From contig CP053157.1 in NCBI GenBank assembly GCA_014607495.2, positions 6,510,001-6,574,000 of the forward strand: 64,000 bases of DNA, read 5' to 3'. The notes below the pieces were generated by a model. The model was not told the DNA's origin. It made no database searches and was given only the letters and a program-made list of their open reading frames with translations. Below, one piece after another: positions 5,178-59,386 of the stretch (position 1 is its first letter; the number at the start of each line of letters is the position of its first letter). This DNA comes from Carposina sasakii (lineage: Eukaryota > Arthropoda > Insecta > Lepidoptera > Carposinidae). A program made the position numbers and the translations under genes.

Positions 5178-7556
5178 TTATATCAATTCTTTTGACCAAG
5201 AATTAATACAAAGTAACCATCTGGCTGACTCATCACTTAACCTATTTCTATGTTTTCTAATTACTAATGATGCTTTAGAAAATAACCTCTCAGCAGGTAC
5301 TGAAGTTGCAGGTATTGAGAGAAAATCACGGGCCATTTTCGATAAAATCGGATACTCTGTCTCATGCGTCCTCCACCAATCTAAAATGTCTTCCGAGCTG
5401 GCAGTTCTTGGTTTTCTCAGGTACTCCTCCAACTCGTCTATCACTAAGCCTTGAAGACAAGATCCAGATGACGTCGAGGGACATTCATAGAGTTTATCAA
5501 AGTCTATTAAGTCTTTATCTTCATCACATACTTTATTTTCTTTTTCTGGTAATTCCAGAGATTTGTTCAGTGAGTGTAGACTTTTATATTCTTCATAAAG
5601 TTCATTGAACTTGCGCAGACTTTCTGTTTTAAGTTGCTTCCCCCACATTGTCAGGTCAAAAGTCTGAGCCTTATGCCTTGGGTCTAAAATTAAAGAAGTA
5701 CAATAAATCCAGTTGCTCTTCTTGTAATGTTTAAGCATTTTGTCTCGAGCTGCTTGGAAAGCTAGAATGAGCCTTTCATCCACTTCAGATCGATTAGGTT
5801 TCTCATCTAACTGTTTTACCATGGATTCAATTTTATCTAGCAAGAGATTGAATGATACAATGACTAGCGGTAATGTAACATATTTGTCTCCACCAAGTTT
5901 TGTACTTAAAAGTTTAAAGTTTATTAGAAATTTATGTAATTTTTCGAGTACCTGCCATTCATTAGCTGTGATTTGAAAATCATTCAATTCGGTGACAGAA
6001 CTGCACAATATGTCAATGCCCGCTCTCACTTTTAAACCAAATCCAATCATATCATGTGTGGAATTCCATCTCGTTGGACAGTCAAGAATGGCATTTAGAT
6101 TTGATGGCACGCCAGCTGCTTCACAAGCAGACTGAAACTTCTTCTTCACTATCTCACTTCTTTTTATTTTACTGGAAATACTGCGTAACTTTGTTACAGA
6201 TGTACGCGAGTCAGCAATATTTGGTGCAGATTCTTCATCTTCCTCATCCTCAGTTTCGTCTGCATAGTCTTCGTACTGCTGATCTTGCGCGTTAGTGTCA
6301 GACTCACAGTGTAATGCTAAGGTCTTTAATAAATCTTGTACACCAAGGTTTAAAATGTTAGCAAAGCACCGGAAATGTTGATTGTCTGAATCAAAGTGTG
6401 GCGGCAGCTGTTTGCCCAGTTCAAACATAAATTTGGTATTTGCACTTGCGTTGTCGACCGTGATAGCTTGTATTTTATCAATTATGCCATATTCCAATAA
6501 ACATTCATGGAAAATCGTTGCAATATCTTCCCCAGTATGTCGACCGCGTGATGGTATAAAATCAAGAACTACAGATCGATACTTCCATTCGTTGTCTATA
6601 TAATGAATAGTAACCCCGTAGTAACTCCTACCAGCAATTGACGTCCACCCATCAATGGTAAACAACATTTTAGATGATAATTGTTGAAGTCGTTCCTTGA
6701 GATTCAATTGGAGCTCTTCAAATCACTCTTTGACTTTCCTTCTAAGTGTAGACCTTTTAGGAAACACCATATTAGGGCAAATACGTCGAAAATATACTTG
6801 TGTAGCTTCGTCATCGAAAAATGAGAAGGGAAGATATTTTTTCACCACCCAATCAACTGTAGCTGTCGTGATGTTGTCACTGCTGTTTTCCGACTGAAAC
6901 AAAACAATAAATATTGTGTTATTATTTAAAACATACTAGGTTTGAGCGTATAAGAGGAGGAGGTTTGTTGTTGTTAAATCGAGAAAATCGTTAAATTGAT
7001 ATTTGTTATATTAAGGTTGCACTGTACTGTAATTTACCAAAATAAAGTACTTAGTTGTTACTGGCCGATTAAATGAAAATATGGGTGTTTATAAAAAATA
7101 TTTAAGACGATAATTACATACTTAATATGTCGCACCCCTAGATGAAAACACCACTAACTCAAAAATACTTACGTAAGTTAATGGCGTTTTTGAAAGTATC
7201 GCATGAATAGCTACGCGGAGTTAAAATTCTTTTAACTGTTAAAAAAATATTCTTACCTGTCCACTTCTTCCAGCGGTTACTAAAAAGCTTGTGATATCTC
7301 CACTTAATTTTGGTTTAACAGGAAGAAATATTTCTGATTCCTTTTTGTGGAAAGATATTAGATGTTTCCTTAAGCCTGAAGTGTTTCTGTTTTTAATTTT
7401 TATTTCAATCTTTTTATGTTGGCACAATTTACACAAGGCAGTTTGGGATGCATGAATTATTTCGAAAAACTCCTCAAATTTGCTTTTGGGTCTTTTAGAT
7501 CTGTGACTCAAACTCTCGTTACTCGGACTAGAATAATTTGAATCTTCGTCACTCAT
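5178..7556 (-). pseudogene. hAT transposase, BED finger plus hATC, two exons, one nonsense codon
   Basis: DNA transposase that would cut and paste the surrounding element. Exon 1 is 7556-7257 (ATG at 7556). It ends at a GTAAGA donor and encodes a BED finger with C42, C45, H65 and H70. The 363-bp intron runs 7256-6894, with a pyrimidine-rich TTTTGTTTCAG acceptor. Exon 2 continues in the same phase to the stop at 5178. It holds the RNase-H-like core, with acidic residues in FTIDGWTS and ITVDNAS and an RCFANILNL segment where relatives usually have His in place of Asn. It ends with the dimerisation region containing SVPAERLFS. Total length, about 670 codons, is normal for the family. The reading frame is broken by TGA at 6725-6723, so no full-length product is expected; the remaining 3' part is open for 514 codons. 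Gene model is inferred, not transcript-based. Confidence 0.88.
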
Positions 7557-12796: not shown

Positions 12797-13064
12797 TATA
12801 CAGGGTGTAACAAAAAGGGTATGTTAAGCGAAAAGCTATATGAACAGCCCACTGTAGAGAACCTATCCACAAAATTTGAGACCCGAAATCACATGTTTAT
12901 TTTTCCGGATAGTATGGAGAATTTTTAAATATCTCAGGAATTTTCATACAATCTTGAAAAATAAAAATGTGATTTCGAGTCTTAAATTTTGTAGATAGGT
13001 TCTCTATAGTAGGCTATTTACATAGCTTTTCGCTTAACATACCCTTTTTGTTACATCCTGTATA
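12797..13064. mobile_element. CAGGGTGTAACA MITE, full copy 1
   Basis: Palindromic MITE flanked by TATA. The left end, ACAGGGTGTAACAAAAAGGG, and its inverted partner on the right share long arms through the AAGCGAAAAGCTAT motif. Two further copies lie at 19222-19456 and 35023-35290. No ORF. Flanks fit a TA or TATA target duplication. Confidence 0.8.
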
Positions 13065-14259: not shown

Positions 14260-15916
14260 ATCCGATTTGTAACAGCGGGGCTAAAAAGTACAAATTAATA
14301 CATCTACCTCTTAGCGGTGGTGCTTGCAAGCGACAGTTTAAATAACATATAAATTTGTTTAGAATCCTGATTTTCTTCGTAACTATTATACTTTACTTGG
14401 CTACAAAACACCGACGTGCCAATATTACCTGCCATACAACTCTGCGGCTCTTGGAACTTTCCCTGTGTTCTTTGCATAGTGAAAGCGGCGTTTTGTTTTA
14501 AGTTTTCCCTTTGTGAATGCTAAGTACCATATTTTTCACGTCGGCCGTCGCATTCTTTAAGCCAACTCTTGAGCTGAAAAGGATTTTTCGCTCGCCGAAA
14601 TTTAATAAAGAAAATCTGCTCGCGAAATTGAGATGTGAACGGTTTAAAACTGCGGCACACTTAGCGTTGAATTTAATTTTTAAAATGTTGTATTGAAAAA
14701 TAAATATATGTAAATCACAACATTTTGTAAATGGCAACGAGGATGTAAATATGACACTGAGGTCTAATTATGATTTGCTAAGTAATATGCGCTGTATCGA
14801 TTCATTTAACTTATACCATAAGAAGTGTATAAGAAGCGAATTTTCATCAGAATATATTTTTGGAGATGGAGACTAAAACATATAATTATGATCACTGGTT
14901 CGTGAAATATAGGTATAGAACTCAGTTACTTAAGTTTAAGACGCACTTAATTTGCCATAATTTGGCAGCAAAATGTAGGTATTGACTGCCAAATTTAGAC
15001 TGTCATGTCAAAAATTAGGTTTAAGCTACTAAGTAAGTTATATTTAACGTTTTGTAATAAGAATCTAAAATAGTTCGAAATTTAATTTTTTTTAAAAGCA
15101 AATAAATACCTACTATTATTTCAGTTACATGTAAAATTAGACTTCACATAACATTTAAGCCAGATTAAAAATTACGATGCAAGCCAAACCAAACTAAGGA
15201 TGTCTGAAGGATTTGTTATCTTATTTTTTTCTCCAAGTATGCCTGGAGCAGCGCGTCACGCACGGAGGTGCTAACGCTGCCCGTAGGATGTTTCATTTCC
15301 TCGAAACTTGCTCGCACTAATTAAATGTTTCGTGAACTTGTTGCCAGATTTCATTTAAATCTCCTGAGCGGTAACTTGAGGCGGAAATTAAAAATGGCTG
15401 CCATTTTGTTGTGAAAAAAGGTTTTATGAACACGCGATCGGTGGTATTGTTTGAATGTGTTGGTAAATGGTTACATTGATTAGATGTAGAGCTTTAATAT
15501 TATTAAGGTCATTAATAAAAATAAAATAGAACAGAAAAGAAAAAACTGAAAGTATGATTACATACATTAATCAATAAATAACCTACAGGTACCTACCAAC
15601 TTTAAGGCGTATGTAAATAGACTGTGCAAAATAAAATAATTTAATTAAGAACTCGAATCCTACTCGTAAGTGTTACGATTTTAGCAGAGAAGTTTGTAAA
15701 TAAGTCTGTCAATCTGTGTCATTGAAAATTCAATTACTGTTTCTGAGAATCTTCTGACATTTGTAAATAAATGTTCGGTTAATTTTCCGAATTAGTTGAC
15801 AAGAGTATGTAGTGTCTACTGTTTTGTACTACATAGATTAGTACATTAATGGGGTCTCAATCTCTTCAACGAAAGTATTTATAAAATAACTACTACCTTA
15901 TAGTTTTTTTAGTAAT
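14260..15916. other. Gene-free stretch
   Basis: No gene or repeat boundary recognised. The region near 15240-15320 is slightly more GC-rich but without a credible frame. Confidence 0.45.
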
Positions 15917-16336
15917 TAGTTATTACACTATGTTTGCAAAATGAATTATTATTCCTTTTCGGATCATCATATTTCTGCCTTTATCGGCCGAATCCCATTA
16001 TTGATGGGGTTGGCGCAATATGTTTTGTTTCGAAACTTTCGCGTTTCTTTTACGACCGCCTGACGCCAAGCCTTCTAGGGTATTTTATTCATCTTTAGAT
16101 GTAAAAAATATCATTTCATTATGTTTTTTTAGTTATTACACTATTATGTTTGCAAAATGAATTTTTATTCCTTTTCGGATCATCATATTTCTGCCCTTAT
16201 CGGCCGAATCCTATTATTGATGGGGTTGGCGCAATATGTTTTGTTTCGAAACTTTCGCGTTTGTTTTACGACCGCATGACGCCAAGCCTTATAGGGTATT
16301 TTATTCATCTTCAGATGTAAAAAATATCATTTCAAC
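15917..16336. repeat. Tandem duplication, two ~210-bp copies
   Basis: Bases from about 15917 to 16123 are repeated at 16131-16336 with only a handful of differences (for example TGCCTTTATC versus TGCCCTTATC). Each unit contains ATTGATGGGGTTGGCGCAAT and a distal GACGCCAAGCCTT motif. A diverged relative of this unit is at 37640-37780, so the duplicated block is itself a dispersed repeat. Confidence 0.85.
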
Positions 16337-16941
16337 TATGTATTAATTTTGCTAAAAAAAGTGCTCGTATTATTTGTATGTGTACGTACAGTGGTATTAT
16401 CTGTGGTACAATCAAAGTTTTCAGTTAATTTGCATGTAGTTAATATTGTTTTACCATTCACTCGGGTAAACAGGGTGATGGAACTATTTAGTCCATTCAT
16501 TGTTATGTTATGATCACAAACTTTGGGGAATGGGTACAGCATGCAACACCGCTAGATACACTAGACTTGTTAAGCTCTACTTCTTAAAGTGTATATATTC
16601 TGTGAAGGTTAAGTTAAATAACTTGTTTATATATATTTCTAAATATAAGTTAAGGACATGTTTCACATATGTTGATAAGTATGAAGTGTTATATAATCGT
16701 GTATACACTTTGTTAGGTACAGGTGAAAAGTAAAGAACAAAATCATGCAACCTAAATGCCCGTCAGTTTGCACGTTAATTTAGTTGATATAGAAAATAAA
16801 ATATATTTAACTATTTTTGAATAATTGCTACAAAACCATAGACACATTTTATTTGATTTTTAAAAAATATTATTGATGTTAAGTAACTATGCACACAAAG
16901 CGTTCGGCTCAGACTAAATAAACGAATAAGCTTTGATCCAA

Positions 16942-16989: not shown

Positions 16990-19220
16990 TAGCTCATAAC
17001 TTACAAAAGTATTAAAAGGTGTACCAAAGACGCGCTGCGAGCTGTACCTGCTGACTAACCTGACACTGTTTATCTACCCAGTGTACGAGGCGGTTAGTAA
17101 GCCATTTTATGCTTCAATAACTATGCTAATGATGCTTGGGACCCTAACAAAAACATTCAATACGTGAGAGAAACTGTCCGATGAAAATTTACTTTACATT
17201 GAATTATTTAGGTTACTAATTTGAGGAGATTACTTGAAAACCAAGAGTGAATGCCATTTTGTATATTTGGGAAAATTTGTGACCATAACATAGAGACAAA
17301 CTCTAATTTAATCCAACATCAAATAAAGAAAGAGTTTCGCAATCCATCTTTATTTTTCAGTACTACGAATAACAGCAATATCAATACAATGTTATGTTCT
17401 TCTTGTTTCAGGTAAGGCAGAATTTCATGATAGCCGAAAAACAAAATTACTGATAGGTAAGTTTAAAAATAAAATACAAGGAATTAAAGGAAGTAAGGAA
17501 CATAAAATATAGGTACTGTACCCCACAACCACATCATGTAGACCAGGTACACTTTTGTTCCTAAGTTGATATAATTTTAGAGTTCTCATTACAAGCAATG
17601 AATTTACGCCTCGATAAATATGTAAATTATCCGCTGGAAGGATAGCAAATTAATGCTTAATTTTCGTATTCTGTTTCGCATAAATTGCGAAAATATATTC
17701 CGAAAATCTTCTGATAGGCGCCGTCGGCATAAATTTCGAAAACGAATTACTCAAACCAACAAGCAAAACGACTGTACGAAATCATAACTTTATTCATCGT
17801 TTAGACAGTATCTACAATAACATTAAATTTAATGTTAGGAAGTAGAGTTGGAATTTAATCAATTCGTCAACTTGTGAATTGCGAACAGTTTAAGCACGGT
17901 TTAAAGTTTAAAACGAGTTTGGTAGCACCTGCTCGATGTGGTTTTAACTGCCTGTTATATCTTTTTAATCAGATTATTGATTTTCTCGGTATATTGTTGA
18001 GAAAAGGAAACCAACTCATCCACGTAATTAAATGAACATTGCTTACAATTCCAATAATGCCCACAGTCATTTAAAACCAGGGAAGTACCTTCATGGCAAA
18101 TGTGATGCATTTATAATAAGTTAAAATACTAATGACTATAACAATCCCGTTCACGTGGGAAGTGTGGGATTATATTTAGTGCATTTCCTACTCTCTCTAA
18201 GCAGTATTAATAGTTAATATTAATATATTATTAGTTTTGATCAGACACCCAGTAACGTAAGAGTTTTATATATATTGATAGTGAATTAATAAAATAATTT
18301 TGATTAAAAAAAACACAAACATTTTCCTTATTGAGCCCATTCATCACATAGGGTAGCTGACAAAGAGGGTTGATGAGTAAAACTCCCCGAATCTCCCGCT
18401 GATTTCCGTATTTCATTTATCGATAATTTGACGGGTAGCCCTGTCGACTTTATCCTGAGTTATGAAATAATTTTCGCAGCACTAGTTTTGTTTTGCGGCG
18501 AATATTAAGCCCATTATGACCATGGGCAATGGCAGTATCGTATGGTTACTGATCTTTCTCATAATATGGAGCATGTTCTATGCTTTTCTGTCAGAAATTG
18601 CTACGATTATGTATGACAGCTGCCTGATCAGTCTACGATTAACACATAGGCTTCCACCGATATGCAGAATTGCAGACGGCATAATTTGTTTGTCAGTAGT
18701 TGGTTTGATGAGGATGAGGTAAATGTCAAAACATCTCATCAATGTCTGTCAACGATGCATCTGTTCATTCATCCATCCATTGACAGATTACCAAATTACA
18801 CTATGACTCGATACCCGCATCCGCCATTTGTAGAGACCTTAGAAATCTATTGTAACGATAGGTTTCAATATTTTGAGTACACAATAAAAAAAAACTCTTG
18901 GATATATCAGCAACGTCATCCCATATACGATGTCTTCTCGAAGGGCCATAACGAAGGGCGCGACCTCAATCGAAGCGAAGGTACCTCCCGTGGATATGTT
19001 ACTGTGATATTGAGTTAACCCTCACCAAGGGACTTGATTTTGACCGTAGTCTGCAGCATTAAAGGTTGAGCAGAAAATCGTGATATATGTACTTATGTAT
19101 TTGTTCTTGTAGGTAATTTATTATATAGAATATCAGTCACTATTATTTAGTAATGTGATTTTTCTAATGCATTTGTCGTTTTATGTTTATAACATTTTGA
19201 TGGGATTATCAAACCAAATA
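16990..19220. other. Gene-free stretch
   Basis: Frames at 18516-18722 and 18662-19018 are open. The first would begin with a hydrophobic run (IVWLLIFLIIWSMFYAFL), but there is no family resemblance. Bases 18525-18543 resemble the 5' end of U4 snRNA for about 17 bases only. Neither is strong enough to call. Confidence 0.35.
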
Positions 19221-19221
19221 A

Positions 19222-19456
19222 GATAAGCGAAAAGCTGTGTAAATAGCCCACTATAGAGCACCTATTTCCAAAATTTGAGACTCGAAATCACATGTTTATT
19301 TTTCTAGATTGTATAAAAATTTGCGAGTTGTTTAGGAATTCTCCATACTATGAAAATGAACATGTTATTTTGAGTCTGAAATTTTGTGGATAGGTTCCTT
19401 TTAGTGAGCTCTTTACATAGCTTTTCGCTTAACATACTTTTGTTACACCCTGTATA
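19222..19456. mobile_element. CAGGGTGTAACA MITE, left-truncated copy 2
   Basis: Matches 12797-13064 from the AAGCGAAAAGC motif to the terminal TGTTACACCCTGTATA, but the outermost ~25 bases of the left end are missing. Confidence 0.75.
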
Positions 19457-19459
19457 TTT

Positions 19460-20290
19460 ACAGGTTTTAAATTTAATTTTACTATGTATGTATTTACTAA
19501 ATATACTATAGGTAGCTTGAGACTATCGGAAAACTTCGTTGAAAAGCATTTTATTATGCTAACGTAATTTACCTACTCATTAAGCCACACACAGTTTGCC
19601 ACCGTGAAATTTCTAGGTATTGTGATCTCAAGTCTTTATGATGGTATTTAACCCAACCCTTATAAAATAATATAAAGGCATCGTGGCTGCTGCTATGGCT
19701 ATAGGTGATTTCCGGCATTGCTTTTGTGGACACACAAACGATTTTCTGAACCGCTTTGGAGTGCTTTCATGATATCAGTATTTGTAATTGGTGCATTTTA
19801 GATGGATTTCCTTCTTTTGTTTGTGCGAAATGTGGTATACCTATATTTTTTATATTTTTAATCTATAATATGTAAATAAATAGTAGGCAATTAGTAAATA
19901 GGCACTAGTAATAGTTTTAACCCTTAAATGTTCTCAAAAACATGATATAACCAAGAACTAGACAGCTAGAATACTAAGATAATCTTTGTTTCTTACTAAT
20001 TTTTTTCTTTCAAGTTTGCATAAGGCTTTTAAATGTCATTAGTACTTTATTTGTAAGCACTGGTACCCTTTATATATTTGCCACAATATACCGGTCAATC
20101 TATACTAGTGACATCGAAATTTTAATACGTTCGTTATACGTTATACCCTTGGTTGGAAAACGTCCTCAGCAGGTGACGTCGGTCGCCAAACTTATGGCTA
20201 CCTGCGTTCGGACAGTTGCAAAATTATATGGGGACCGCTCTTAATGAAATAGCATTGTTGTTAGTTACTGTATATTGATAGAATTCTGGG
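19460..20290. other. No recognised gene
   Basis: AT-rich sequence without a supportable feature. Confidence 0.45.
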
Positions 20291-21360: not shown

Positions 21361-21997
21361 TCCCACCAAAAACATTTTGTAAAAAACTAGCCAAGTCTAG
21401 ATGGAGCTGCTTGTTGATCTCTAAAAAGTAATGAAATCTAGACAAAGTCGTGCCAAGTGTAAGATTCCTTACTGCGATTTCTTTGTTATCATAGTTAATG
21501 TTGTGTGACTTGGTCGTTGAAGGGTATAAAGGGTACAAAACGGCGAGCCTGAAACAAACAGTATAAAAAATTATTTCCAGTACAGACGGACTTCTAATCA
21601 TTAATAGAAGTCCGCCTGTACGTCTATTTTATGTTAGATCGGTGGTCGATTTGACGCTCTAAAAGGAAGAGAGCAAACAAAGCCTAAACAATTGGTAGTA
21701 AAATTCGCTAATAATTTGATTCACGAATTATTGCCAATTAAGTCAAAAATTTTGATTATACCCCGGGCATATGTGTACAGAGAACAATTCCCAATCTGTG
21801 TGGCCTTATCTATATTTCATATATATATTATATATGTTCAATGGCCAAGTCACACAACATTAACTATAATAATAAAGAAATCGCAGTAAGGAATCTTACA
21901 CTTGACACGACTTTGTCTGGATTTCATTACTTTTTAGAGATAAACAAGCAGCTCCATCGAGACTTGGCTAGTTTTTTACAGAATGTTTTTGTGGGAT
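21361..21997. repeat. Large imperfect inverted repeat (155-bp arms)
   Basis: Bases 21361-21515 and 21843-21997 are inverted copies with roughly ten differences, separated by about 330 bp. Inside the spacer a smaller hairpin pairs GTACAGACGGACTTCTAAT (about 21579-21597) with an imperfect partner to about 21620. The arms may be two head-on insertions of one dispersed repeat, or one fold-back element. Confidence 0.8.
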
Positions 21998-22102
21998 CCT
22001 TTTGACACATCGAAATTAATAAAAATATATTGCACGAAAATGTAATCATTACAAAGCCAATACTGGCATAATTTTATATAATAATTTTTAAAATAATAAA
22101 CG

Positions 22103-22856
22103 AAAAACCGACTTCCTCCCAAAACTCGAGCTTACTAAAGTAAAATTTTACTAAAGGGCAAATATATATTGCGTTAAGCCATGTATGAAGTTTAGAAGGC
22201 ATAATATTGTCAGATTTATATGCCAGCAAATGATTAATTAGGCCACATGACAAAAGAGAGAAATGAGTAGGCTTCGAAACTTCACGTCTGACAATATAAG
22301 CAACATATAAATAATTACACTCCTTCTTCCTGCCCTGTTCCCAATCATTTGGGGTCGGTGCAATATGTAGGTACTCTTCTTTCATTCATACCTATTATCC
22401 GTCATCTCGTTATTCTCATGTCTACCTCTTCCTCTATAACCATCTTACTTCGGACACGGCTTAACGCAACATATAATTTCACCACTTAACACAATTATCT
22501 TCATAAGCCTACTGCAGTCCACTACTGGACGTAGGCCACCCCCTGCCATAGGGGATTTTGTTACTAAAAAGTTCCACTGTCTGTTTTTCGGCGACTCCAT
22601 CATCAGACCCTCGTTTCCTTTATATTATGTGTAGCTGACCAAAATTCTCTATAAAAATCTAAAAACGGACTACTCGTGCCTTTTATATTTGAGGATATCC
22701 CTAGATTCCTTAGAGATTTCATCATCAGATGTTTTGTTTTATATGTAGGTGATCAAAACGCTCAGTAAAAGTATAAAAACAGACTACATGTGCCTACAAT
22801 ATTTCTCCAAGATCTCATCATCAGATCCTGACATGGTGAATATGGGACTAACTATA
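22103..22856. mobile_element. ACCGACTTC-ended repeat, right-truncated copy
   Basis: Begins AAAAACCGACTTCCTCCC and matches the element at 47002-49921 in three blocks: 22103-22227, about 22260-22297, and about 22298-22850. It lacks the two extra segments present in the other copy. It is cut off at a (TA)n run next to the scrambled Gypsy. Confidence 0.75.
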
Positions 22857-22862
22857 TATATA

Positions 22863-23299
22863 TGACGTAGATGGGTCGAGTGGCGTGCCGTTAGGTGTGT
22901 CCGACATCTTCCAAAATCCGAAATAAAGAATGCGGCGTGTAGTAAACAAGCTTAATTAGGAATCACAAACACTTTCACTGTATCTACGCACAAGATTACT
23001 AGGATTCTAGCGGATAACGTAGAAACGTGGTAAGTACAAGACAGAGGCTGATTAGCACCCGTGCTTCGCTCGACAGACGCAACCAAAAAGAACAGAATAC
23101 CCTCCGGCTCAATTCAAACGACCCGGTGGTCGTTGTAAATCTACAGTGGCGCCCTCTCAGTACTCTGTCTTGTCTTTACCCAAGTGACAGCTGTCCTCAA
23201 GTCAGTGATAGCTGTCGACTTGACGTTTCTAACTTCAACGATTGAAAATAGATGGCGTTGGAGATCCGACTGTAGGATATGACATCTTGATCTCCGACA
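22863..23299 (-). repeat. Direct copy A of Gypsy LTR, leader and gag start
   Basis: This 437-bp segment reads identically, as far as I can see, to 25978-26414 (constant offset 3115), except for a few differences in the last ~25 bases. It includes the gag ATG at 22907, so it extends beyond an LTR. It therefore looks like the first part of a second, truncated element sharing an LTR with the first. Confidence 0.8.
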
Positions 23300-23643
23300 C
23301 GGCCATTTTGACAACTCACGCGTCCTCGCGTGGGGTTTCTGGAAAGAAAGAGGATTTTGCAAAGTAACATGTATCACGCTCGGTCTTTCTGACCATTGGG
23401 ACAGTAAAAACTTAATTTAAACGTTACTAAACCTTTATTTCAAACGAACCAATATCATCATAATCAAAATTGAAAATCATTTTACTATACCAAATTGTTA
23501 CAAATTTACTTGCATACTATTAAACAAAGAAATCGACTATAATCGTCACACACAAGGTAAATAATTCCAAAACAAGGCTACAGTATACACAATCCATATA
23601 GAGTAGCGTCAGTCAAGTAAGTCTAGTTGCCTCAATCTAGCAA

Positions 23644-23800
23644 CTCTTGGAAACTTCCATCCAGCTTCCGTATACCAGTCTAGTCACTTCCATCCAGTGA
23701 CTCTTAGAAACTTCCATCCAGCTTCCGTATACCAGTCTAGTCACTTCCATCCAGTGACTCTTGAATACCTCTATCCGGTATCCGTAAACCACTCTCAATC
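23644..23800. repeat. 57-bp tandem repeat (~2.7 units)
   Basis: Units start at 23644, 23701 and 23758, each with CTCTT, ACTTCCATCCAGC and CAGTCTAGTCACTTCC motifs. The first two are nearly identical and the third is diverged. It sits in the 3' untranslated part of the scrambled Gypsy. Confidence 0.8.
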
Positions 23801-23813
23801 AGTCAACTCAACA

Positions 23814-26022
23814 TTAATTAGAACATGACGGTCCATCCCCGTCAAGTTCGCACAGATTATCATCACGGTCACATGTCAGCATGTCATTGGTAATGTCATT
23901 CGCAGGCATTCGCCTAAGTCTGTCATGTGCGTACTTATAGGTTCTATTGGAATTAAGGGCTTTAAGAACATAACGATTACCTTCAAGTGCCTCCGATACC
24001 CTAAAAGGACCTCTATACTTCGGATCAATTAATCGAATTTCGAGTTCACCTGTAGTTACACGAGTTTTTGGCAAACCTGTTGTAAAATAACTGGAATATT
24101 CACCTAAAATAGTTAAAAGATCTGACTTTTTACAAGAGGGTATATCTGTGTCAACATTACTAAAGTCGTTACTGATACTAGAATCGGTTAAAACGTCACA
24201 ATTTAAAACTGTCAAATTATTTTGTTTTGAAATGCTAAAATTATTTGTTGACAAGTTAATAACGAAGCCTTGACTCAATATTTCACGACCTAGCATAATA
24301 TCACTACGCATATACACATCGGGTAAAACATGTAATAAAAGTTCTAAACAATAATCATTAATTTCAACATTACACAGTATTTGCTGGGTGCTGAATACAC
24401 TGGTTTGACCAATTCCCGTTAGAGAGACAGTTTTAGCAATTCTTTTACCATTGAAACTTGATGCAACGCTTTCTTTTATTAGTGAACACTCAGCACCCGA
24501 ATCAAAATGAAAATCATAAAATCTACCTTGATTATTAAGAGCGCCGGTCGGTGGTAAAGCGGTAAGTGCAACTATCTTTCGTGGATTCAGACGAATTTGA
24601 CCTCGGCGCACCTCGAAGCCTAGGTACTCTACTTTTTCTTTCAGGAATTAGCACTTTTTAGGATTTAACGAAAATCCCTTCCCAGAAAGAACTTCTAATA
24701 CTACCTTTAGTCTATCGAAAGCTTTGTCGATGTTACTGGCCACAACTAGCACGTCATCCATGTACACTACAACGTATTTGTTCACGAGATCGCCTAGAGC
24801 ATGTACGAGGCTATAGAAGTTTGTCCTATACCAGTCATAGAAACATTGTCATAAATTCGCTTACCACTAAATTTCAAAGCAATCGATTCTTTAACTAAGG
24901 AACACTCTGAACCTGAGTCGTAAGTAAATGGAAATGACTCACCAGAGTGACGCAGAGAACCCGAAGGCGCATTCACAATGCACACGTTTACTCGCTTTTC
25001 CTTAGCTGGACCAGTTCCAGTGCCGCCGCCGGTACCGTTGTTCCCCTCCTTGATTTTCCTCTTCGGGCAGTCGGATGCATAGTGGCCTTGTTCCCGGCAG
25101 TTGAAGCAGGTGATGCGATCGGTTCTCCCTGTAGGTTGGTTGGTCGAGTTATGGTCCCCGTGAAAGGACCTGTGTTTGGACCGGTCATCTTGCTTCTTCG
25201 AATTGGCTTTGTTGCGACATTGAAGAGATTTGTGGCCTAGTTGTCCACAATTAAAGCACTTGATGGTCACAGCAGATCCATTAGGTCGGTTTCTTTTTAG
25301 GTCGGGTCCATCACGATAAATACTTGATGAATAACTTCTCTTCAGGAACGAGACAGCCTTCAGTTCCTTTTGTAAATGGTTACGCATCTTGATGTCAGTC
25401 GTTATAGCAATCCTCTGAACACGTGGCTCTTGTTTTGAAATATGAGCTAAGACAGTGGCTATTGCTATCTGTTCTGTAGTCAGTCCATTCCACCTTGCCA
25501 TTAAGGATGTTATGAGGGTAGCGGCGTATGAGGCCAGGCACTCGTTATCTCTCGGTTTCTTGTCGTGCATACTGATGAGAAAGGAAGCAGCAGTTTCAGG
25601 ACAGTCATACCTTGCTACGAAAAGCTCCTTAAAATCGGCCCAAGTCATATTAGGAAACGATATTGAAGACAGCCAAGATGATGCTTCGCCTTGAGTGCGT
25701 GGCTTAACGCGATCATCAGAGAAGATCCATGGCGATGTCGATCTGTGATACACATGTCCGCGGTCGTTATCCAAGCTCGGGCGTCGATGTCTCTTTTCTC
25801 TGGGTCGAAATCAGGAAGGCGAATAGAGTCCGAAGATGCAGGTAGTTTTATTGCTTGCACCAACGCCAGAAAATTTTGATTTTGTTGCTCGAAGAGAAGA
25901 CGCCATTTTTCTTCGCTCGAGTCACTATTTGAAGCACGTGTTTCATGTGGGTGATCCGGGTTGCATCCCACTTCTGATGACGTGGGTGGGTCGATTGGCG
26001 TGCCGTTAGGTGTGTCCGACAT
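23814..26022 (-). pseudogene. Gypsy gag/protease/RT pseudogene with rearranged domain order
   Basis: Gag starts at the ATG at 26022. Its frame is broken near 25690 and continues in another frame to 24794. That part holds two CCHC knuckles (CFNCGQLGHKSLQC and CFNCREQGHYASDC, about 25215-25260 and 25068-25108) and a protease-like YDSGSE near 24913. At about 24820 it joins an RT palm piece with VYMDDVLVVA (about 24752-24766), which carries a TAA at 24650-24648. At about 24545 this joins a second, diverged protease with FDSGAE. Near 24020 the RT start (FTTGLPKTRVTTG) joins the region found after integrase (KYRGPFRVSEAL). Retrotransposon structural and enzymatic functions are known for these domains, but none is complete here. 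The two protease segments differ in sequence, so two related elements seem to have contributed. Confidence 0.8.
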
Positions 26023-26414
26023 CTTCCAAAATCCGAAATAAAGAATGCGGCGTGTAGTAAACAAGCTTAATTAGGAATCACAAACACTTTCACTGTATCT
26101 ACGCACAAGATTACTAGGATTCTAGCGGATAACGTAGAAACGTGGTAAGTACAAGACAGAGGCTGATTAGCACCCGTGCTTCGCTCGACAGACGCAACCA
26201 AAAAGAACAGAATACCCTCCGGCTCAATTCAAACGACCCGGTGGTCGTTGTAAATCTACAGTGGCGCCCTCTCAGTACTCTGTCTTGTCTTTACCCAAGT
26301 GACAGCTGTCCTCAAGTCAGTGATAGCTGTCGACTTGACGTTTCTAACTTCAACGATTGAAAATAGATGGCGTTGGAGATCCGACTGTAGGATATGACAT
26401 CTTGATCTCCGACA
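25978..26414 (-). repeat. Direct copy B of Gypsy LTR, leader and gag start
   Basis: Partner of copy A and the 5' end of the scrambled element. It begins TGTCGGAGATCAAG on the minus strand; the TG start fits an LTR. I could not fix the LTR 3' boundary or the primer binding site. Confidence 0.75.
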
Positions 26415-35022: not shown

Positions 35023-35290
35023 TATACAGGGTGTAACAAAAAGGGTATGTTAAGCGAAAAGCTATGTAAATAGCCCACTGTAGAGAACCTATCCACAAAA
35101 TTTGAGACCCGAAATCACATGTTTATTTTTCCCGGTAGTATGGAGAATTTTTAAATATCTCAGGAATTTTCATATAATCTTGAAAAATAAAAATGTGATT
35201 TCGAGTCTCAAATTTTGGAAATAGGTTCTCTATAGTGGGCTATTTACATAGCTTTTCGCTTAACATACCCTTTCTGTTACACCCTGTATA
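35023..35290. mobile_element. CAGGGTGTAACA MITE, full copy 3
   Basis: Flanked by TATA on both sides, with intact inverted ends (ACAGGGTGTAACAAAAAGGG and its partner). It is nearly identical in layout to 12797-13064, including the shared interior around a Gly/Lys-free AT-rich centre without ORF. Confidence 0.82.
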
Positions 35291-45059: not shown

Positions 45060-46985
45060 AAATACATTGTCCGCTTCTGAAAGATTTAGTTAGTAACTAT
45101 CATACACAATAAGTAGACAGATATTACAGCTTTTTATTCAAAAGTGTTCCCGCAAAGCACATTTCATGCTAGGTATCATCCGAATGGCCACAGGCAGCTC
45201 TGTGAAGCCCGAATCATTGGAATGACCATGAAGTAGTTAAATAAAGAAACTGTTAAATAAAGAAAATGGTAAAAAAATATATTATATTCAAAAATAATAC
45301 ACACACGAAAGAAATAAGTGTTAATAAGAAAGAAGAAAGACAAATAGTATAGGTGCGTCGAGCAGCACATAAATAAAAGCATTAGCTAGTTGGTGTTCAG
45401 ACAGCTACCTACTACTAAATGATTTTAAATAACTAGGAATAATATTGTGAGGTTAGCCACAATGCTAATATTCTTCTAGAAGGAGGAGAGAAGCAGAAGT
45501 TTGCTTACAAACCCACTTTTTCCCGGTTTAATTTAAATCTCTGTAAATTGAATTGACATCGCAGTATAATAATCATGCAATTACCTATGCGCGAATACGC
45601 TACGTAGTATATGAACTGGTGGCTTTCTATCGCTTGCTTTGATGGGCAAAGTTCATTCTTCCCCGATCATCTTTAAAACAGCATGATTGCAGTATTGTGT
45701 GTACCTATATCTGCACTTGTTGTTAAAACACCTCCTCTTGTATTTACTCCGTGTGACCACCCGCAATAAGAGGCGCTTTTAGCGGAATTAAAATGTTGAG
45801 CGTCACTGGTCGGCCACATGTTTTATTGATATGATAGATCTGCTGTGAAGTCAGTCATTTGCGAATTTAGTTTTATTTATTATTGTATAGGATGAATTGC
45901 TTATTGGATGGGCAATATCTGCACATGCGTCTAAATATTGAAATTACGTTGTACGAAGCCTTTACTATTTACATGCGAAGTACGCAGCTGGTCTAGCCAA
46001 CACTAGGATATTATACAGGGTTCTAATAGGTACGAGTACATTATAATAAAAATTCAAGTGGTTTTTCGCATAAGTAAATATATGGTTTTATGGACATCTA
46101 CCTCTTTTAAGTTAACGAAAATACACCATCATCACAAAAATATAGGAATATAATTTTCCAAATTAAAAAATGTTAATTTAATTTGTGCAACAAAACCACA
46201 GAACCAAAGGTATTTTACTTTCAAATTAAATAAATCATAGGTGTGTACAGATACAGTTTCGGTTGGCTGCGTCTTCGAAAATATTTACATGCTTATAATT
46301 TCATAACCTTGAAATTAACTGTATGTCGTGCTCGTTCATTAAATATTAAAATTATCGTCGTAATATCATTTTGTAATTGGAGGGTTAAATTTACTATCGT
46401 TAAACAAGCAGGAAACATACTGTACCTATATGTCGCATATAGAAATCGTAACACTTGTATGTTGAATAAAATTACCAAGACCCTAGCTAGAGACATTTGC
46501 AGAAATTAATCCTGATTATTTTTCGTTACAGGTTATTTCACAATCTTGGATAATACCAAGAAGTGACTTGTTGCAGGGGAATATCTGTAAGTTGTTTTAA
46601 TTTTTATTTATGTATATGAAATTAACCTAAATTCCATAGCGCATGCGTTTTCCTAGGTCCCCACGATGCATATAGTTGGTAGCCCGCTATGGGAAAAGAA
46701 GGGTGTAGGTAAACTATAGACACTGTACTAGAAAATTTTAACGTTTTTAACGTTACTAGTTATAGATAGATACCTATTATGACCGCTCTCACATGGGCCA
46801 GTGAGATCGGTGCTGTAAGTATGCGACAAGTCTCAGTTGCTTACGGGCTGGTTCGGCACGGTATTTGGATGCTGACGGACGACATATTTTATCGTTTGAC
46901 GTTATCATTTGGTAGTGAATGTACGAGTATTTATTTCTTTGGAAATAAGCAGACACAGATGTACATGTAAAACAAAATTGTATAA
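45060..46985. other. No recognised gene
   Basis: Several short frames (for example 46243-46509, 46779-46970) lack any family resemblance. No gene is supported. Confidence 0.4.
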
Positions 46986-47151
46986 TAATTTTTTTTAAAC
47001 GAAAAACCGACTTCCTCCCAAAATTCGAGCTTACTAAAGTAAAATTTTACTAAAGGGCAAATATATATTGCGTTAAGCCGTGTACGAAGTTTAAGAGGCA
47101 TAATATTGTCAGATTTATATAATGTAAAATAGGCCACATGACAAATGAGAA

Positions 47152-47724
47152 AAAAGAATTATTATTAAAAAAACAAAATACCCGACTGCACACTAAAAAA
47201 AGAGTAAAACAAGCCACACAATAATATTGATCAATCAAATGCTAAAAACTAATTATGTAATACCGTTTAAACAATACCTATATTAAAATACACTACAATA
47301 TGTGTTCGTAATCGATAGTTAAATAAACAGAAACTTATTTTGAATACAAATTTACTGAATATAATTTATAAATGTTGATGGAAAGCATCGCAGGCGGGGA
47401 CCAACAGAGGCTTATTTATAGTCATTTCGGTTGTGCACCATTTAGCAGAATTTTCGTTGGTGGCGGTCAAGGTGGTCCCCGCCTGCGATGCTTTCCATCA
47501 ACATTTATAAATTATATTCAGTAAATTTGTATTCAAAATAAGTTTCTGTTTATTTAACTATCGATTACGAACACATATTGTAGTGTATTTTAATATAGGT
47601 ATTGTTTAAACGGTATTACATAATTAGTTTTTAGCATTTGATTGATCAATATTATTGTGTGGCTTGTTTTACTCTTTTTTTAGTGTGCAGTCGGGTATTT
47701 TGTTTTTTTAATAATAATTCTTTT
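47152..47724. repeat. Perfect inverted repeat, 252-bp arms, 69-bp loop
   Basis: Bases 47152-47403 are the exact reverse complement of 47473-47724 as far as I can check by eye, with constant pairing sum 94876 and no indels. Each arm ends outward in a GTGTGCAGTCGGGTATTTTG tail, the form of a retro- or DNA-element terminus. The loop contains CAGAGGCTTATTTATAGTCA and no ORF. Confidence 0.92.
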
Positions 47725-48466
47725 ATTTATAACTTTTTAGCTGTTTTTATTTAACGAAAATGTTGTAGATGTAGAAGACTATGTATATGTAAGTACCATT
47801 TTAAATTATTTCGACGACATTTGGCTTTAGATTACGAGTGATGTTACTCCGCAACATAAATTTACCGCCAATCTGGACTGTTTGTAGTGAAGAAGAAAAA
47901 GAATTAGGTGAGTCATTACTGCTGAAGATCCCGCAAACGTTTAAGTTTCGCGTCAGACGACGAAGTATCGAAAAAATCGCTATTTAGAGACGACCGTCAA
48001 CGACGTGTGCCCTTATGCGTGTGCCCGCATTCGGGCTGTATACTCGAGCATATCCCTCTCCGCACCGCGCCGCGCGCCGCATGCCAGGCCACGCCCTATC
48101 TTTTTGCTTGCTAACGCATGAGTTGCTTTGCGTTGACGCAGAATTAACATGTTCCCGTGGGAATTTTGAGAAAAAACGTATCCTATATTAATTACTCCCG
48201 TGATTGAAATGAATCTAATGATACCGCATACATATTTTTGTTGTTTAAAGGGAAATTTAGAAAAAATATTATTATGTCTTTATCCCGTGGGACTTTTATG
48301 ATAAAATGTATCCTATGACACTCCCGTAATCAAGACAAATCTAACGATACCTCATACATCAAAATCCATCAAGCCGTTTAGGCTACAGGAGGTCACAAAG
48401 GAACAGACATACATACATACTTACATACACTCCCTCAACATTACCCTCCCTCTTTGGCAGTCGGGT
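47180..48466. mobile_element. ACCCGACTGC...GCAGTCGGGT-bounded insert (~1.3 kb)
   Basis: Inverted 10-bp termini bound the stretch that is missing from the 22-kb copy of the host repeat. The insert includes the perfect inverted repeat, a GC-rich patch at 47990-48130 and a two-unit repeat at 48150-48420. A further GCAGTCGGGTT end is at 59369. No transposase frame was found. Confidence 0.5.
48150..48420 (+). repeat. Two-unit repeat (~133-bp period) with CATACATA run
   Basis: CCCGTGGGA(A/C)TTTT, (A/T)GTATCCTAT, CTCCCGT(G/A)AT and AATCTAA(T/C)GATACC occur in order from about 48152 and again from about 48285. A CATACATACATAC run follows near 48410. This resembles the body of common lepidopteran non-autonomous repeats. 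Confidence 0.65.
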
Positions 48467-48661
48467 AAAAAGGACTAGACTTCGAATCTTTACGTCTGAC
48501 AATATGATGATTATGTAGATAATGATGACCTCCGACCAATTTCGGTCATGGCGACCACTTCTACTCCTAGATATTACTAAGTTGGCGTTCATGCGCTCGG
48601 AGATGGCTTACATTTACATAGCCAATCTTCGCCCTGAACGCCCGCGCACACAGAGGACAGG

Positions 48662-49195
48662 TTAGTGCGCCATTATTGTATTATAGATAATGGCAGCAGG
48701 AGGACGAGTCTTAAGTTCATCACGTTTAGCGTCAAGGTCAGCTTGACGCTGCTCCTCGAACTCGTGTACTTGCTTTATCACCGTCCTGCGCCACTCTGGT
48801 CGTTGTGCTGACAAAACTTCCCATTTAGATGGATCTATATTGCATCTCTTCATATGTCTTTTCTGAACATCTTTGTATCTGAGGAGTTGCCCGCCGCGTT
48901 CCCGCTTACCCTCCTACAGTTCAGAAAAGAATATGCGCTTAGCCAATCTCTCCTCCGCCATACTAGACACATGACCGCACCACCGAAGCTGCCGACGCAT
49001 TAAGTAGGCCTCAATGCCACTTACATTGGCTCTTCGCAATACTTCGGTATTACGCACTCGGTTGGACCATCTGATTCTCATGATGGATCGGAGGCACTTG
49101 AATCGATCCAGAGTGCGTATGTGGCGACGGTACATGCACCACGCCTCGGAGGAATATAAGAGATTTGGCAGCACAATAGCCATGTACACACTTAT
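48662..49195 (-). pseudogene. Non-LTR retrotransposon RT C-terminal region, nonsense-containing
   Basis: The minus strand encodes the part of a LINE polymerase downstream of the catalytic core: [20 protein letters not shown], then RCLRS-like [22 protein letters not shown] and [11 protein letters not shown], followed by a terminal segment with [18 protein letters not shown] at 48916-48914 interrupts an otherwise continuous frame. About 175 codons remain; the endonuclease and catalytic RT core are absent. The upstream junction at about 49198 is sharp, with the repeat shared with 22298 starting there. It is a dead fragment; clade not determined. Confidence 0.8.
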
Positions 49196-49198
49196 TTG

Positions 49199-49780
49199 AG
49201 CAACATATAATTATACTCCTTCTTCCTGCCCTGTTCCCAATCATTTGGGGTCGGTGCAATATGTAGGTACTCTTTTTTCATTCATCCCTATTATCCGTCA
49301 TCTCGTTATTCTCATTTCTACCTCTTTCTCTATAACCATCTTACTTCGGACACGGCTTAACGCAACATATAATTTCATGACTTAACACAATTATCTTCAT
49401 CTTCAAATGCCATATTGCAGTCCATTACTGGACGTAGGCCCCCCTGCCATAGGGGGATTTTGTTACTAAAAAGTTCCACTATCTGTTTTTCGGTGGCTCC
49501 ATCATCAGACCCTCGTTTCCTTTATATTATGTGTAGCTGACCAAAATTCTCTATAATAATCTAAAAACGGACTACTCGTGCCTTTTATATTTGAGGATAT
49601 CCCTAGATTCCTTAGAGATTCCATCATCAGATGTTATGTTTTATATGTAGGTGACCAAAACGCTCAGTAAAAGTATAAAAACAGACTACATGTGCCTACA
49701 ATATTCGAGGATTGCCCTCGATTTCTCCAAGATCCCATCATCAGATCCTGATATGGTGAATATGGGACCAACCTGGAAGT
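49199..49780. repeat. Repeat block shared with 22298-22850
   Basis: About 550 bp at high identity to the 22-kb copy, including CTCCTTCTTCCTGCCCTGTT, ATCATTTGGGGTCGGTGCAA and three recurring CATCATCAGA motifs. It contains a GCAGTCCA-type LINE tail in reverse near 49410-49435. Confidence 0.75.
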
Positions 49781-52161: not shown

Positions 52162-52165
52162 GTTT
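52162..52165. repeat. Gypsy target duplication (left)
   Basis: GTTT directly precedes the 5' LTR and is repeated at 56134-56137. A 4-bp duplication is usual for Ty3/Gypsy integrases. Confidence 0.8.
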
Positions 52166-52441
52166 TGTGGCGGACAACCCGACACCGCCAAAAATATTGT
52201 ATATAGTGAGAAAAGCCGCGCGCCTTACTATAGTCTCACCGAAGAGCGAGCCACGCGCCGGCGCCGTACTGACGCATTCGATCGCAGGCTCTCACAGCGA
52301 ACGCACGTCCGCTCGCCTTTGGCCATCCGCCATATTTCTTATTTCATAGTGTAGGTTGTGTTTTATATTCATTGTAAATATTTCTCCTGTAAATATATCA
52401 TCCGACCATCAAGCTTGTATATTATTCCCAACACGCCTACA
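52166..52441 (+). repeat. 5' LTR (276 bp)
   Basis: Starts TGTGGCGGACAACCC and ends CGCCTACA (TG...CA), matching 55858-56133 base for base by eye. A GTATATAGTGAG motif near 52199 could be part of the promoter. Confidence 0.93.
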
Positions 52442-52443
52442 AC

Positions 52444-52461
52444 TGGTGACCCACGTCGTCC
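52444..52461 (+). promoter_or_regulatory. Primer binding site for minus-strand synthesis
   Basis: TGGTGACCCACGTCGTCC begins two bases after the 5' LTR. A TGG start fits pairing with a tRNA ending in CCA. The tRNA identity was not determined. Confidence 0.7.
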
Positions 52462-52485
52462 GAAGAACAGTGAATTTTTCCTACA

Positions 52486-55400
52486 ATGTCCACGGAAGAC
52501 TATCTAGGAAAAAACAAAAGCTCGGATGACAAGACAAATCAAGAAATTTTTTTGGCCAAACGGATTGAAAAATTAAATTCCCAGGTTGCCACACTGCTCG
52601 AAATAATAGAACAAGAGGAAACCCGTTCACATTATTCGCAATCCGCTGCCCGATCGAATCACAGGTACAAATCTCCACATTATTATAACCGCCATGCGAC
52701 GTCTCACCACCGCAATAGCGCAACGAAAAATTCTTCGCCTTGCGACGAAATGAGAAATCACCGCATGCAGCCACAGGCAAACGAATGCCTCACATGTAAT
52801 GGCCGACTCTTCGTTACTGATTGCACTAGCAAAATTCAATTCCTTATAGACACAGGCTCAGATCTATGCGTTTTCCCACGCACGATGACCCGCGAACGCC
52901 GCACAAAGTGCAACTATGAACTCTTCGCGGCCAACGGTAGCACTATCGCCACATATGGCCACATTCAACTACACCTTAATCTCGGTTTAAGAAGAGATTT
53001 TAACTGGAAGTTCGTCGTCGCCGACGTATCAAAACCTATTATTGGCGTCGACTTCCTTAGCTTCTATAACCTTTTAGTTGACTGCCGACAGCATAAACTC
53101 ATCGACGGCCTCACTTCTCTGTCCATACAAGTTCCTCATCAAACTCAAGTAGTAGAAGCAGTCAAGGCAGTAACCGGGGACTCGACGTTCCACGCACTGC
53201 TGAGACAATACCCGGAGATAACCAGACCAGCAGGTAATCCTATCTTAGCAGAGCCGAAGCACAACACCAAACACCACATTCGTGTTACCACCGGCCCGCC
53301 AGTATCTGCACGTCCACGCAGGTTAGCTCCAGATCGCCTACTCATAGCCAAAAAGGAATTCGAGGACATGGTCAACAATGGTACAGCCCGGCGCTCAGAA
53401 AGTCCATGGTCATCGCCTCTACACCTGGTGCCGAAGAAAGATAACGGCTGGCGACCTTGCGGCGACTACAGAGCCCTAAACGCCAGAACCATTCCCGACA
53501 GGTACCCCATAAGGCACATACAAGACTTCTCCTATCAGCTCGCCGGTTGCACAATCTTCAGCAAGCTAGATTTAGTCAAAGCCTACAATCAAATTCCTAT
53601 GTTCGAAGACGATATTCCTAAAACAGCTATTACAACACCATTTGGTCTCTTTGAATTCCCTTATATGACCTTTGGTCTTAGAAATGCTGCACAAACATTC
53701 CAAAGATTCATCGACGAAGTCCTTCAAGGTTTGACATTTACTTTTGGCTATCTCGATGACATTTTAATATTTTCAAAATCAGAAAAACAACATTTGGAAC
53801 ATCTCAAAATTTTATTTGAACGACTGAAGACGTATGGTGTCATAATAAATACTTCAAAAAGTATTCTTGGCATAAACGAAATTGACTTTTTGGGATACCA
53901 CGTTTCATCTAAAGGTACTCGTCCACTTGTAAATAAAGTCGAAATTATTAAAGATTTTCCAGTACCTAAAACTGCCAAAGAACTTAGAAGATTTTTGGGA
54001 ATGCTGAATTATTTTCGAAGATTTGTACCAAACGCAGCTAAAATTCAAGCGCCACTCAACTCAGCTCTTAGAGGTGCCAACATGAAAGGATCTACACCAG
54101 TGCATATGACACCAGAACTACTCCAGGCATTTGAGGAATCCAAGTCCACACTGTCTGAAGCCACTCTACTGTCGCATCCAAATGCACAAAACGAACTTGC
54201 CCTCTATACTGATGCTTCTGACGTTGCTATTGGTGCTGTTCTACAACAACGAGACGGTGAAGAATGGATACCACTAGGATTTTTCTCTAAGAAGTTATCC
54301 AACTCTCAGAAAAGCTATAGCCCGTATGATAGAGAACTCCTAGCCATCTATGAAGGAATCAAACACTTCAGGTACATGGTCGAAGCAAGAACCTTCACTG
54401 TATTTACCGACCACAAACCTATCACTTTCGCCTTCACCACCAAGAGAGATAACTGCTCACCTCGACAACTACGCTATCTCGACTATATATCCCAATTCAC
54501 GACAGATATCAGACACGTATCTGGGAAAGACAACGTAGTAGCCGATGCTCTCTCACGCATAGAAGTTATTTCAAGCATAGATTACCAGTCCTTGGCCCGC
54601 GAACAACAGAACGACAGTGAACTGCTAGACTTGTTACGGAAAGGATCCTCGCTGAAGCTGAGCAAAGTTAAACTCCCAGAAGCTAATTGCGAAGTTTACT
54701 GTGATACATCAAGAGTCACAAGACCTTTCATCACCAAATCCTTCCGCAAGCAGATATTCGACATGCTTCACAATCTTAGCCATCCAGGTGCCAAAGCCTC
54801 TGCACAGTTGGTATCGCAAAGATTCGTCTGGCCCGGAATAAAAAAGGACTGTCGACAATGGGCAAAAGAATGCACAGATTGCCAACGTAACAAAATCATT
54901 CGTCATACATCATCACCTCTCACACCCATTCCAACTCCATCTGATCGTTTTTCACACATTCACATGGACATCGTAGGACCATTACCACCTTCCTATGATT
55001 ACAGATACTGCCTCACTGTCATCGATCGCTTTACTCGATGGCCTGAAGCGTATCCTCTGCGTGACATCACTGCAGAAACCTGCGCTCGCACCTTCGTGGC
55101 CGGCTGGGTTGCCCGCTTCGGCTGCCCTCACAAAATCACCACCGACCGCGGCAGGCAATTTGAATCGCAGCTTTTCAAGAACATCGCCTCAATTATCGGT
55201 GCTGAACTTCGTCCTACCACATCATATCACCCTCAATGTAATGGCATGGTTGAACGACTACATCGCCAACTCAAGTCAGCCATCATGTGCCACAACAATA
55301 GCAATTGGTCCGAGGTACTTCCACTCGTACTTCTTGGAATACGAAGTGCATGGAAGGACGACCTCCAACGATCAGCGGCCGAACTCGTCTACGGTGAACC

Positions 55401-55830
55401 TCTGCGCCTTCCAGGAGAGTTCTTCGAACCTGATAAGAACCTCATCGTAGACCCGACAGACTTCGCCTCACGCCTCCGCACCCACATGAAAAACCTGGCT
55501 CCTGAACCTGCTGCATGGCATGGAAGCAGATCCTTCTACCTTCCCAAGGACATCATGACAGCAAGCCACGTTTTCCTCAGAAAGGGACACTCGCAGAGAT
55601 CGCTAGAACCGCCCTATTCCGGTCCACACAAAGTTATAGACCGAGGGCCGAAGCTCTTTAAGCTCGACGTCAACGGCAAGGAAACAACAGTTACCATCGA
55701 CCGCATCAAACCCGCACACATGACACGCGACGCAACTCCAACTTCCCCAGCTCCAGTCGTGTGTCCAGATCAAACACAAAGAACAAGACATGGTAGAATA
55801 GTGCGCTTTCCTGATCACTATCGACCGTAG
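52486..55830 (+). CDS. Gypsy Pol polyprotein (PR-RT-RH-IN) with vestigial Gag
   Basis: An uninterrupted 1114-codon ORF; the ATG at 52486 lies 44 bases after the LTR. Residues 1-100 are polar with a short coiled-coil-like stretch (20-45) and His/Arg/Ser-rich sequence, but no capsid and no CCHC knuckle. Protease: LIDTGSD (active-site DTG 122-124). RT: about 260-480, with [16 protein letters not shown] and YLDD at 422-425. RNase H: acidic residues in LYTDAS (576), DRELL (617) and TDHKP (642). Integrase: zinc-binding H762, H766, C796, C799 and a D828, D887, E923 core with D,D-35-E spacing, then a GPY/F-like module (PPYSGPHKV). All catalytic residues are present. The expected product is Pol replicating the element through cytoplasmic particles and nuclear integration; without capsid, particles would have to come from elsewhere. 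Confidence 0.93.
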
Positions 55831-55843
55831 CAAGCAACGGTCT

Positions 55844-55857
55844 CGGCGGGGGAGTAT
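55844..55857 (+). promoter_or_regulatory. Polypurine tract
   Basis: Purine-rich GGCGGGGGAG directly before the 3' LTR, where plus-strand DNA synthesis is primed in LTR elements. Confidence 0.75.
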
Positions 55858-56133
55858 TGTGGCGGACAACCCGACACCGCCAAAAATATTGTATATAGTG
55901 AGAAAAGCCGCGCGCCTTACTATAGTCTCACCGAAGAGCGAGCCACGCGCCGGCGCCGTACTGACGCATTCGATCGCAGGCTCTCACAGCGAACGCACGT
56001 CCGCTCGCCTTTGGCCATCCGCCATATTTCTTATTTCATAGTGTAGGTTGTGTTTTATATTCATTGTAAATATTTCTCCTGTAAATATATCATCCGACCA
56101 TCAAGCTTGTATATTATTCCCAACACGCCTACA
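55858..56133 (+). repeat. 3' LTR (276 bp)
   Basis: Identical by eye to the 5' LTR. Short frames within it and in the 5' LTR are duplicates and not genes. Confidence 0.93.
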
Positions 56134-59329: not shown

Positions 59330-59386
59330 TACAAACATACACTTGAAAAACATTACTCTCCTTCTGGTGCAGTCGGGTTAAAAAAT
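59330..59386 (+). repeat. Isolated GCAGTCGGGT end
   Basis: CTCTCCTTCTGGTGCAGTCG followed by GGTTAAAAA is the same type of terminus as 48457-48466. The rest of the element is unrecognised. Confidence 0.5.

Follow-up and report, generated by a model that had tools for sequence, protein, structure and literature searches.

It is an open question how hairpin-RNA loci arise. In Drosophila, loci of this kind are reported to be cut by Dcr-2 (PMC10317233). Twin priming in human LINE-1 (L1) insertions has been described as marked by inversion of the 5′ end together with microhomology at its junction (PMC2912911). A study of 287 human L1 inversions reports overlap between the two cDNAs in 44 of 106 germline cases (42%), the overlaps being short (median 12 bp, quartiles 4 and 17; PMC12016303), and a figure legend in a 2025 survey describes insertions by twin priming in which sequence is duplicated where the inversion starts or ends (PMC12350158). 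In cell assays, 5′ inversion is reported to be confined to human L1 in human cells, with the exception of one insert, and to come mostly with target duplications of 10–20 bp (PMC4245944); duplications of 9 bp or less are reported as commoner in 5′-truncated than in 5′-inverted L1 (PMC2912911). The 2025 survey also counts 277 human inverted duplications outside mobile-element insertions (median 284 bp) and reports microhomology of 1–15 bp for most human inverted duplications (PMC12350158).

The window, a 64,000-nucleotide stretch of Carposina sasakii DNA, contains an inverted repeat located by a repeat finder, with two arms of 252 nt each (GC content 0.27) separated by 69 nt (Table 1). The left arm is the reverse complement of the right arm at 252 of 252 bases, exactly as the first-pass annotation had described it. 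It is the sole 100% pair among 24 listed inverted pairs of at least 40 nt in the window, where the only longer pair is imperfect (271 nt, 86% identity, 22 kb apart). The RNA fold predicted for 47140–47740 has an energy of −416.6 kcal/mol, compared with a mean of −106.2 kcal/mol (s.d. 6.1) for 20 shuffles of the same segment, none of which is as stable as the real sequence; a chance origin of the inverted repeat is out of the question. The earlier proposal that a transcript would form a long duplex agrees with the predicted fold. Its statement that such palindromes are rare was too strong, given three other close inverted pairs in the window (two with 120-nt arms and one with 155-nt arms, all imperfect) and the number counted in the human survey (PMC12350158). 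The pair with 155-nt arms lies at 21367–21991 (nine mismatches, 315-nt spacer); the window also holds a near-perfect hairpin at 740–831 (42-nt arms, one mismatch, 8-nt loop) and a tandem duplication at 15916–16341 with a 216-bp unit (about 94–95% identical).

Table 1. Features of the palindrome-bearing insertion and of the older element around it (window coordinates)
Feature	Position	Strand	Basis or remark
Left arm, inverted copy	47152..47403	-	repeat finder, script; motif GCAGTCGGGTA at 47179-47189 (-)
Loop, 69 nt	47404..47472	+	repeat finder, script
Right arm	47473..47724	+	motif GCAGTCGGGTA at 47687-47697 (+); insert body 47725-48466 directly after
TCTTTT, 6-nt microhomology to target end AAAAGA	47719..47724	+	proposed internal priming/annealing site
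Tail motif GCAGTCGGGT	48457..48466	+	motif search; right end of insert
Insertion, 1309 bp	47158..48466	+	absent from 22-kb paralogue
Probable left target-site duplication AAAAAAGA	47150..47157	+	7/8 equal to 48467-48474
Probable right target-site duplication AAAAAGGA	48467..48474	+	A run possibly partly element tail
Older LINE-like element, left part, 3′ end side	46978..47157	-	paralogue match; strand and LINE label inferred
Older LINE-like element, continuation	48475..49772	-	paralogue match; holds ORF fragment 48914-49210 (-)

The palindrome lies within a LINE-like element, a second copy of which (22074–22852) runs uninterrupted through the palindrome site (BLAST against 21900–23000). Three segments of the 47-kb copy align to it: 46978–47157 to 22074–22266 (87% identity, 193 alignment columns), 48469–48523 to 22261–22315 (78%, 55 columns) and 49199–49772 to 22299–22852 (91%, 580 columns). 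In the outer parts (47001–47157 and 49212–49772), 29 of 692 ungapped bases differ between the copies (4.2%). The insert-free comparison site is that of a paralogue, not of an allele. Because the 22-kb copy is continuous through the site, 47158–48466 reads as one insertion into the 47-kb copy, with the palindrome as its left end; the insert consists, in this order, of the inverted left arm, the loop, the right arm, a body of 742 bp and a tail. The converse, that the 22-kb copy lost both of the stretches missing from it, is less favoured, since the 1309-bp stretch is flanked by a repeat and carries a foreign tail. A second gap relative to the 22-kb copy, at about 48524–49198, contains ORF fragments missing there and is an indel separate from the insertion. 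The ORF fragment 48914–49210 sits in a stretch absent from the 22-kb copy and has no Pfam match; its product presumably resembles LINE proteins. Sub-cut-off Pfam matches of the older-element fragments 48662–48913 (E 0.072) and 48567–48680 (E 0.022) were taken as chance.

Just past the matched part of the 22-kb copy lies what is probably a young LTR retrotransposon (22862–26414). Its direct repeats (22862–23299 and 25977–26414; 438 bp, 99.3% identical) bound ORFs on the reverse strand (23814–25810) in which Pfam finds zinc knuckles above its cut-off and, more weakly, protease and gag. At 52162–56133 lies a young Gypsy-type element whose open frame is long; there, direct repeats of 280 bp (52162–52441 and 55854–56133; 99.6% identical) enclose a 1118-residue ORF with reverse transcriptase, RNase H and integrase domains.

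The 8-bp sequences on either side of the insert, AAAAAAGA and AAAAAGGA, agree at seven of eight positions in an A-rich site, which reads AGAAATGA in the paralogue (22259–22266). A match of this quality occurs in 0.69% of random site pairs from 46–50 kb when 3 bp of slack are allowed, and the actual left 8-mer reaches it at 2.3% of other sites with slack and at 0.4% without, figures that apply to insert boundaries chosen post hoc, after inspection. From the sequence of the two flanks, an 8-bp target duplication around the 1309-bp insert is probable; it is suggestive rather than proof, because the site is A-rich and the A run on the right could be element tail. The outer end of the left arm falls within this probable duplication, and its outermost 6 bp (47152–47157) are common to the target-side sequence and the insert.

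The right end of the insert bears an element-type tail, GGCAGTCGGGT, which may be the 3′ end of a LINE. The motif GCAGTCGGGTA occurs exactly once in each arm and a third time at 48457–48467 (+), and the left-arm copy corresponds to bases 22–32 of the insert. With at most one mismatch, the motif has six matches in the window, where 0.26 are expected. The suggestion of the first-pass annotation that both arms carry the same element tail outward is right as far as this motif goes, the arm tails having little in common with the right-end tail beyond it; neither the third copy near 48.46 kb nor the place of the palindrome in a larger insertion had been noted. The segment 48423–48466 has one further match in the window, a weak one to 59335–59378 (44 bp, 77%, E 0.002). 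A text search of the literature for the tail motif returned only papers unrelated by title.

We tentatively interpret the palindrome as the 5′ end of a single 5′-inverted, twin-primed insertion of retrotransposon type, lodged in the older LINE-like element, and hold this reading with somewhat less than even confidence. The starting RNA would have held the right arm and the 742-bp body and ended in the tail. A first cDNA would be primed from the 3′ tail of this RNA at the right-hand target end, while the other target end, which terminates in the left duplication, would pair with a TCTTTT inside that RNA, located 21 nt beyond the internal copy of the tail motif. Once annealed, this second end could prime a second cDNA in the opposite direction. 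Both cDNAs would copy the same ∼246 bases, one of them extending 69 bases further, and their joining would yield perfect arms and a loop. Passage through RNA and twin priming are inferences, as is strand displacement, which an overlap of this length would require.

The insert has its 5′ part inverted and a 6-nt AAAAGA microhomology at the 5′ junction, as described for twin priming, and overlap of the two cDNAs as such is frequent in germline L1 inversions (PMC12016303). This microhomology, picked after inspection like the insert boundaries, is equalled or exceeded at two of 1050 other positions in 47404–48454. The motif and the microhomology carry the argument for twin priming. Several observations count against it. 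Cell assays almost confine 5′ inversion to human L1 in human cells (PMC4245944), and duplications as short as the present one go with truncated more often than with inverted L1 (PMC2912911). The overlap of about 246–252 bp is neither short nor absent, and ∼250 bp would be extreme beside human L1; we found no twin-priming overlap of this length in the literature searched and do not claim that none is in print. The 8-bp duplication is shorter than those typical of inverted L1. One mismatch in eight positions of the duplication, set against none in 252 of the arms, is hard to reconcile with a single age barring conversion between the arms. The window contains no further copy of the inserted body that would reveal its natural order.

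Snap-back of the first strand and later template switching are close rivals of twin priming, and either would produce almost the same final arrangement. In the former, the cDNA primed at the right-hand tail would reach the loop, fold back and copy its own arm, and its new end would anneal to the target overhang via AAAAGA/TCTTTT. This route requires one priming event to reach the same final structure and accounts for the perfect arms, the loop and the left microhomology; yet in the literature searched we found no documented case of a 69-nt fold-back by a LINE reverse transcriptase, and homology priming the hairpin would be visible only against an unrearranged element. We regard snap-back as unlikely, if the best placed of the alternatives. 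Next comes a history in two steps, in which a 5′-truncated insertion was followed by an MMBIR or fold-back template switch that added an inverted copy of the arm at the junction of target duplication and insert. Human genomes commonly vary by inverted duplications of this size, and their frequent short microhomologies (PMC12350158) would suit such an event; however, a second event is required whose outer edge coincides with the target duplication, and we consider this origin rather unlikely.

That the palindrome is instead a fixed part of a mobile element of fold-back or MITE type, moving as a unit with its inverted repeats, is improbable. Fold-back elements do exist in the window (12797–13064 and 35023–35290; 120-nt arms, 28-nt loops, common left end TATACAGGGTGTAAC), but no direct repeat of 4–12 bp at 87% identity or more lies within 3 bp of the arm ends (47152–47724), the 1309-bp insert does not have one arm at each end, and the window contains no second copy of the arms beyond a 28-bp match. 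A search of the window for further palindromic copies of the arms likewise found none. The two fold-back copies are 95.5% identical to each other, and a related third copy lies near 19219–19460. The simple head-to-head duplication of a transposon end proposed in the first-pass annotation is unsupported in that form: in the 4–12-bp range no target duplication flanks the palindrome itself, and a stand-alone event is not upheld because the probable duplication flanks the whole 1309-bp insert, whose left end the palindrome forms. We rejected a DNA transposon that made an 8-bp duplication, since the ends of the insert, compared by eye, are not inverted copies of each other. We also rejected two independent insertions in opposite orientation; the arms show 0 of 252 differences and have their inner end in common, and no separate duplications were found.

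Perfect arms are the expected product of fold-back chimeras, and the first-pass annotation had allowed for an assembly artefact. An assembly or library artefact of this kind is very unlikely, since comparison with the paralogue accounts for the outer junction on either side. What lies left of the palindrome and what lies right of 48474 belong to a single interrupted element, which the 22-kb copy shows without a break; the left edge coincides with the probable target duplication, and the right arm leads on into the rest of an insert that has a tail. A fold-back read would have one junction followed by the reverse complement of its flank, whereas the arms here end in different flanks, so that an artefact would presumably require two independent junctions at just these places. 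Least probable of all is a functional hairpin-RNA locus kept perfect because it produces 21–22-nt siRNAs, for which the very stable predicted duplex and the Dcr-2-cut loci of Drosophila (PMC10317233) might be cited, since perfect arms are equally expected from a recent origin.

Arm identity may reflect either youth or conversion between the arms. At a mutation rate that we assume to be 2.9e-9 per base and generation, arms that differ at 0 of 252 bases can be up to about 2 million generations old, so that their perfection needs no selection. Most likely, the insertion is young and the palindrome, an inverted duplication, was made at its 5′ end in the course of that insertion.

Searches of sequence collections returned little. 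A 20-mer with the tail motif of the arm had no match in viral_contigs or genome_contigs, a 28-mer of the insert body had none in viral_contigs, and the region 46900–47950 had none in a phage collection searched in distant mode; an 18-mer of the arm had one match in viral_contigs, which we judged to be chance. Because these collections consist of viral or prokaryotic sequences, the negatives carry little weight for an insect element. In the window, neither Rfam at its gathering threshold nor ARAGORN, run for tRNAs, found anything, and no Pfam family was found at E up to 0.1 for the loop-spanning ORFs 47372–47524 (+) and 47366–47497 (−) or the body ORF 47805–47987 (+). A literature search for long inverted repeats in Lepidoptera gave no match.

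Elsewhere in the window, a long hAT transposase ORF (5178–6722, reverse strand) is 98% identical to a protein cluster; of 7997 candidates scored, 282 are related to it at E up to 0.001. Among the best 120 of these 282, the closest named relatives are mostly from Lepidoptera, and the named ones that we recognised are insects. The matches listed include Parnassius mnemosyne (86% over the full length), Spodoptera littoralis (94% over 56%), Pararge aegeria (96% over 27%) and the sawfly Neodiprion pinetum (97% over 50%). As evidence on the host, these relatives and the tail motifs make a lepidopteran likely, with the caveat that mobile elements can cross species.

If transcribed, the palindrome would give a 252-bp duplex, by analogy with the Drosophila hairpin-RNA loci a plausible Dicer substrate, and a role in siRNA production or gene silencing is possible. 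A more far-reaching version of the twin-priming reading, speculative and rather unlikely, is that the LINE machinery of an insect used both target ends simultaneously to copy a single RNA, starting near two copies of the tail motif and displacing ∼250 bases of strand, and so made in one step a perfect inverted repeat that might serve as a source of hairpin RNA against its own element. Such two-end copying of one RNA, if true, would let a retrotransposon insertion give rise directly to an siRNA locus. Palindromes left behind as by-products of retrotransposon insertion would provide, in a simple way, perfect hairpins that match the element, and they can be sought genome-wide. Were the event a one-off inverted duplication, the locus would still illustrate clearly that an assembled inverted repeat with perfect arms is not necessarily an artefact.

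Among known systems, Drosophila hairpin-RNA loci share with this one a long inverted repeat able to form a duplex, as the fold prediction indicates here; a primary transcript and Dcr-2-dependent 21–22-nt siRNAs mark such loci and are hypothetical for the insert. The fold-back or MITE-like elements of the window also have close inverted arms and a short loop, but there the whole element is palindromic, with a common end and 12–13 mismatches in the 120-nt arms, while the 1309-bp insert is not palindromic overall and its arms carry no mismatch. Fold-back inverted duplications at DNA ends in yeast and human resemble the palindrome in their arms, short loop and junction microhomology; they arise at chromosome ends or breaks in unique DNA, whereas the inverted duplication here is found only at the end of a flanked insertion. 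With twin-primed human L1 the insert shares an inverted 5′ segment that has microhomology at its junction and, under the proposed mechanism, two cDNAs with sequence in common; a tail at the opposite end and a target duplication on the flanks are probable further likenesses. It differs from L1 in its tail, in its insect host, in a duplication of 8 bp as opposed to the mostly 10–20 bp reported for L1 (PMC4245944), and in an overlap of about 250 bp as opposed to a median of 12. The insertion would thus work like twin priming, of which it is an atypical member; the event is of a known kind, and what is unusual is the length of the overlap.
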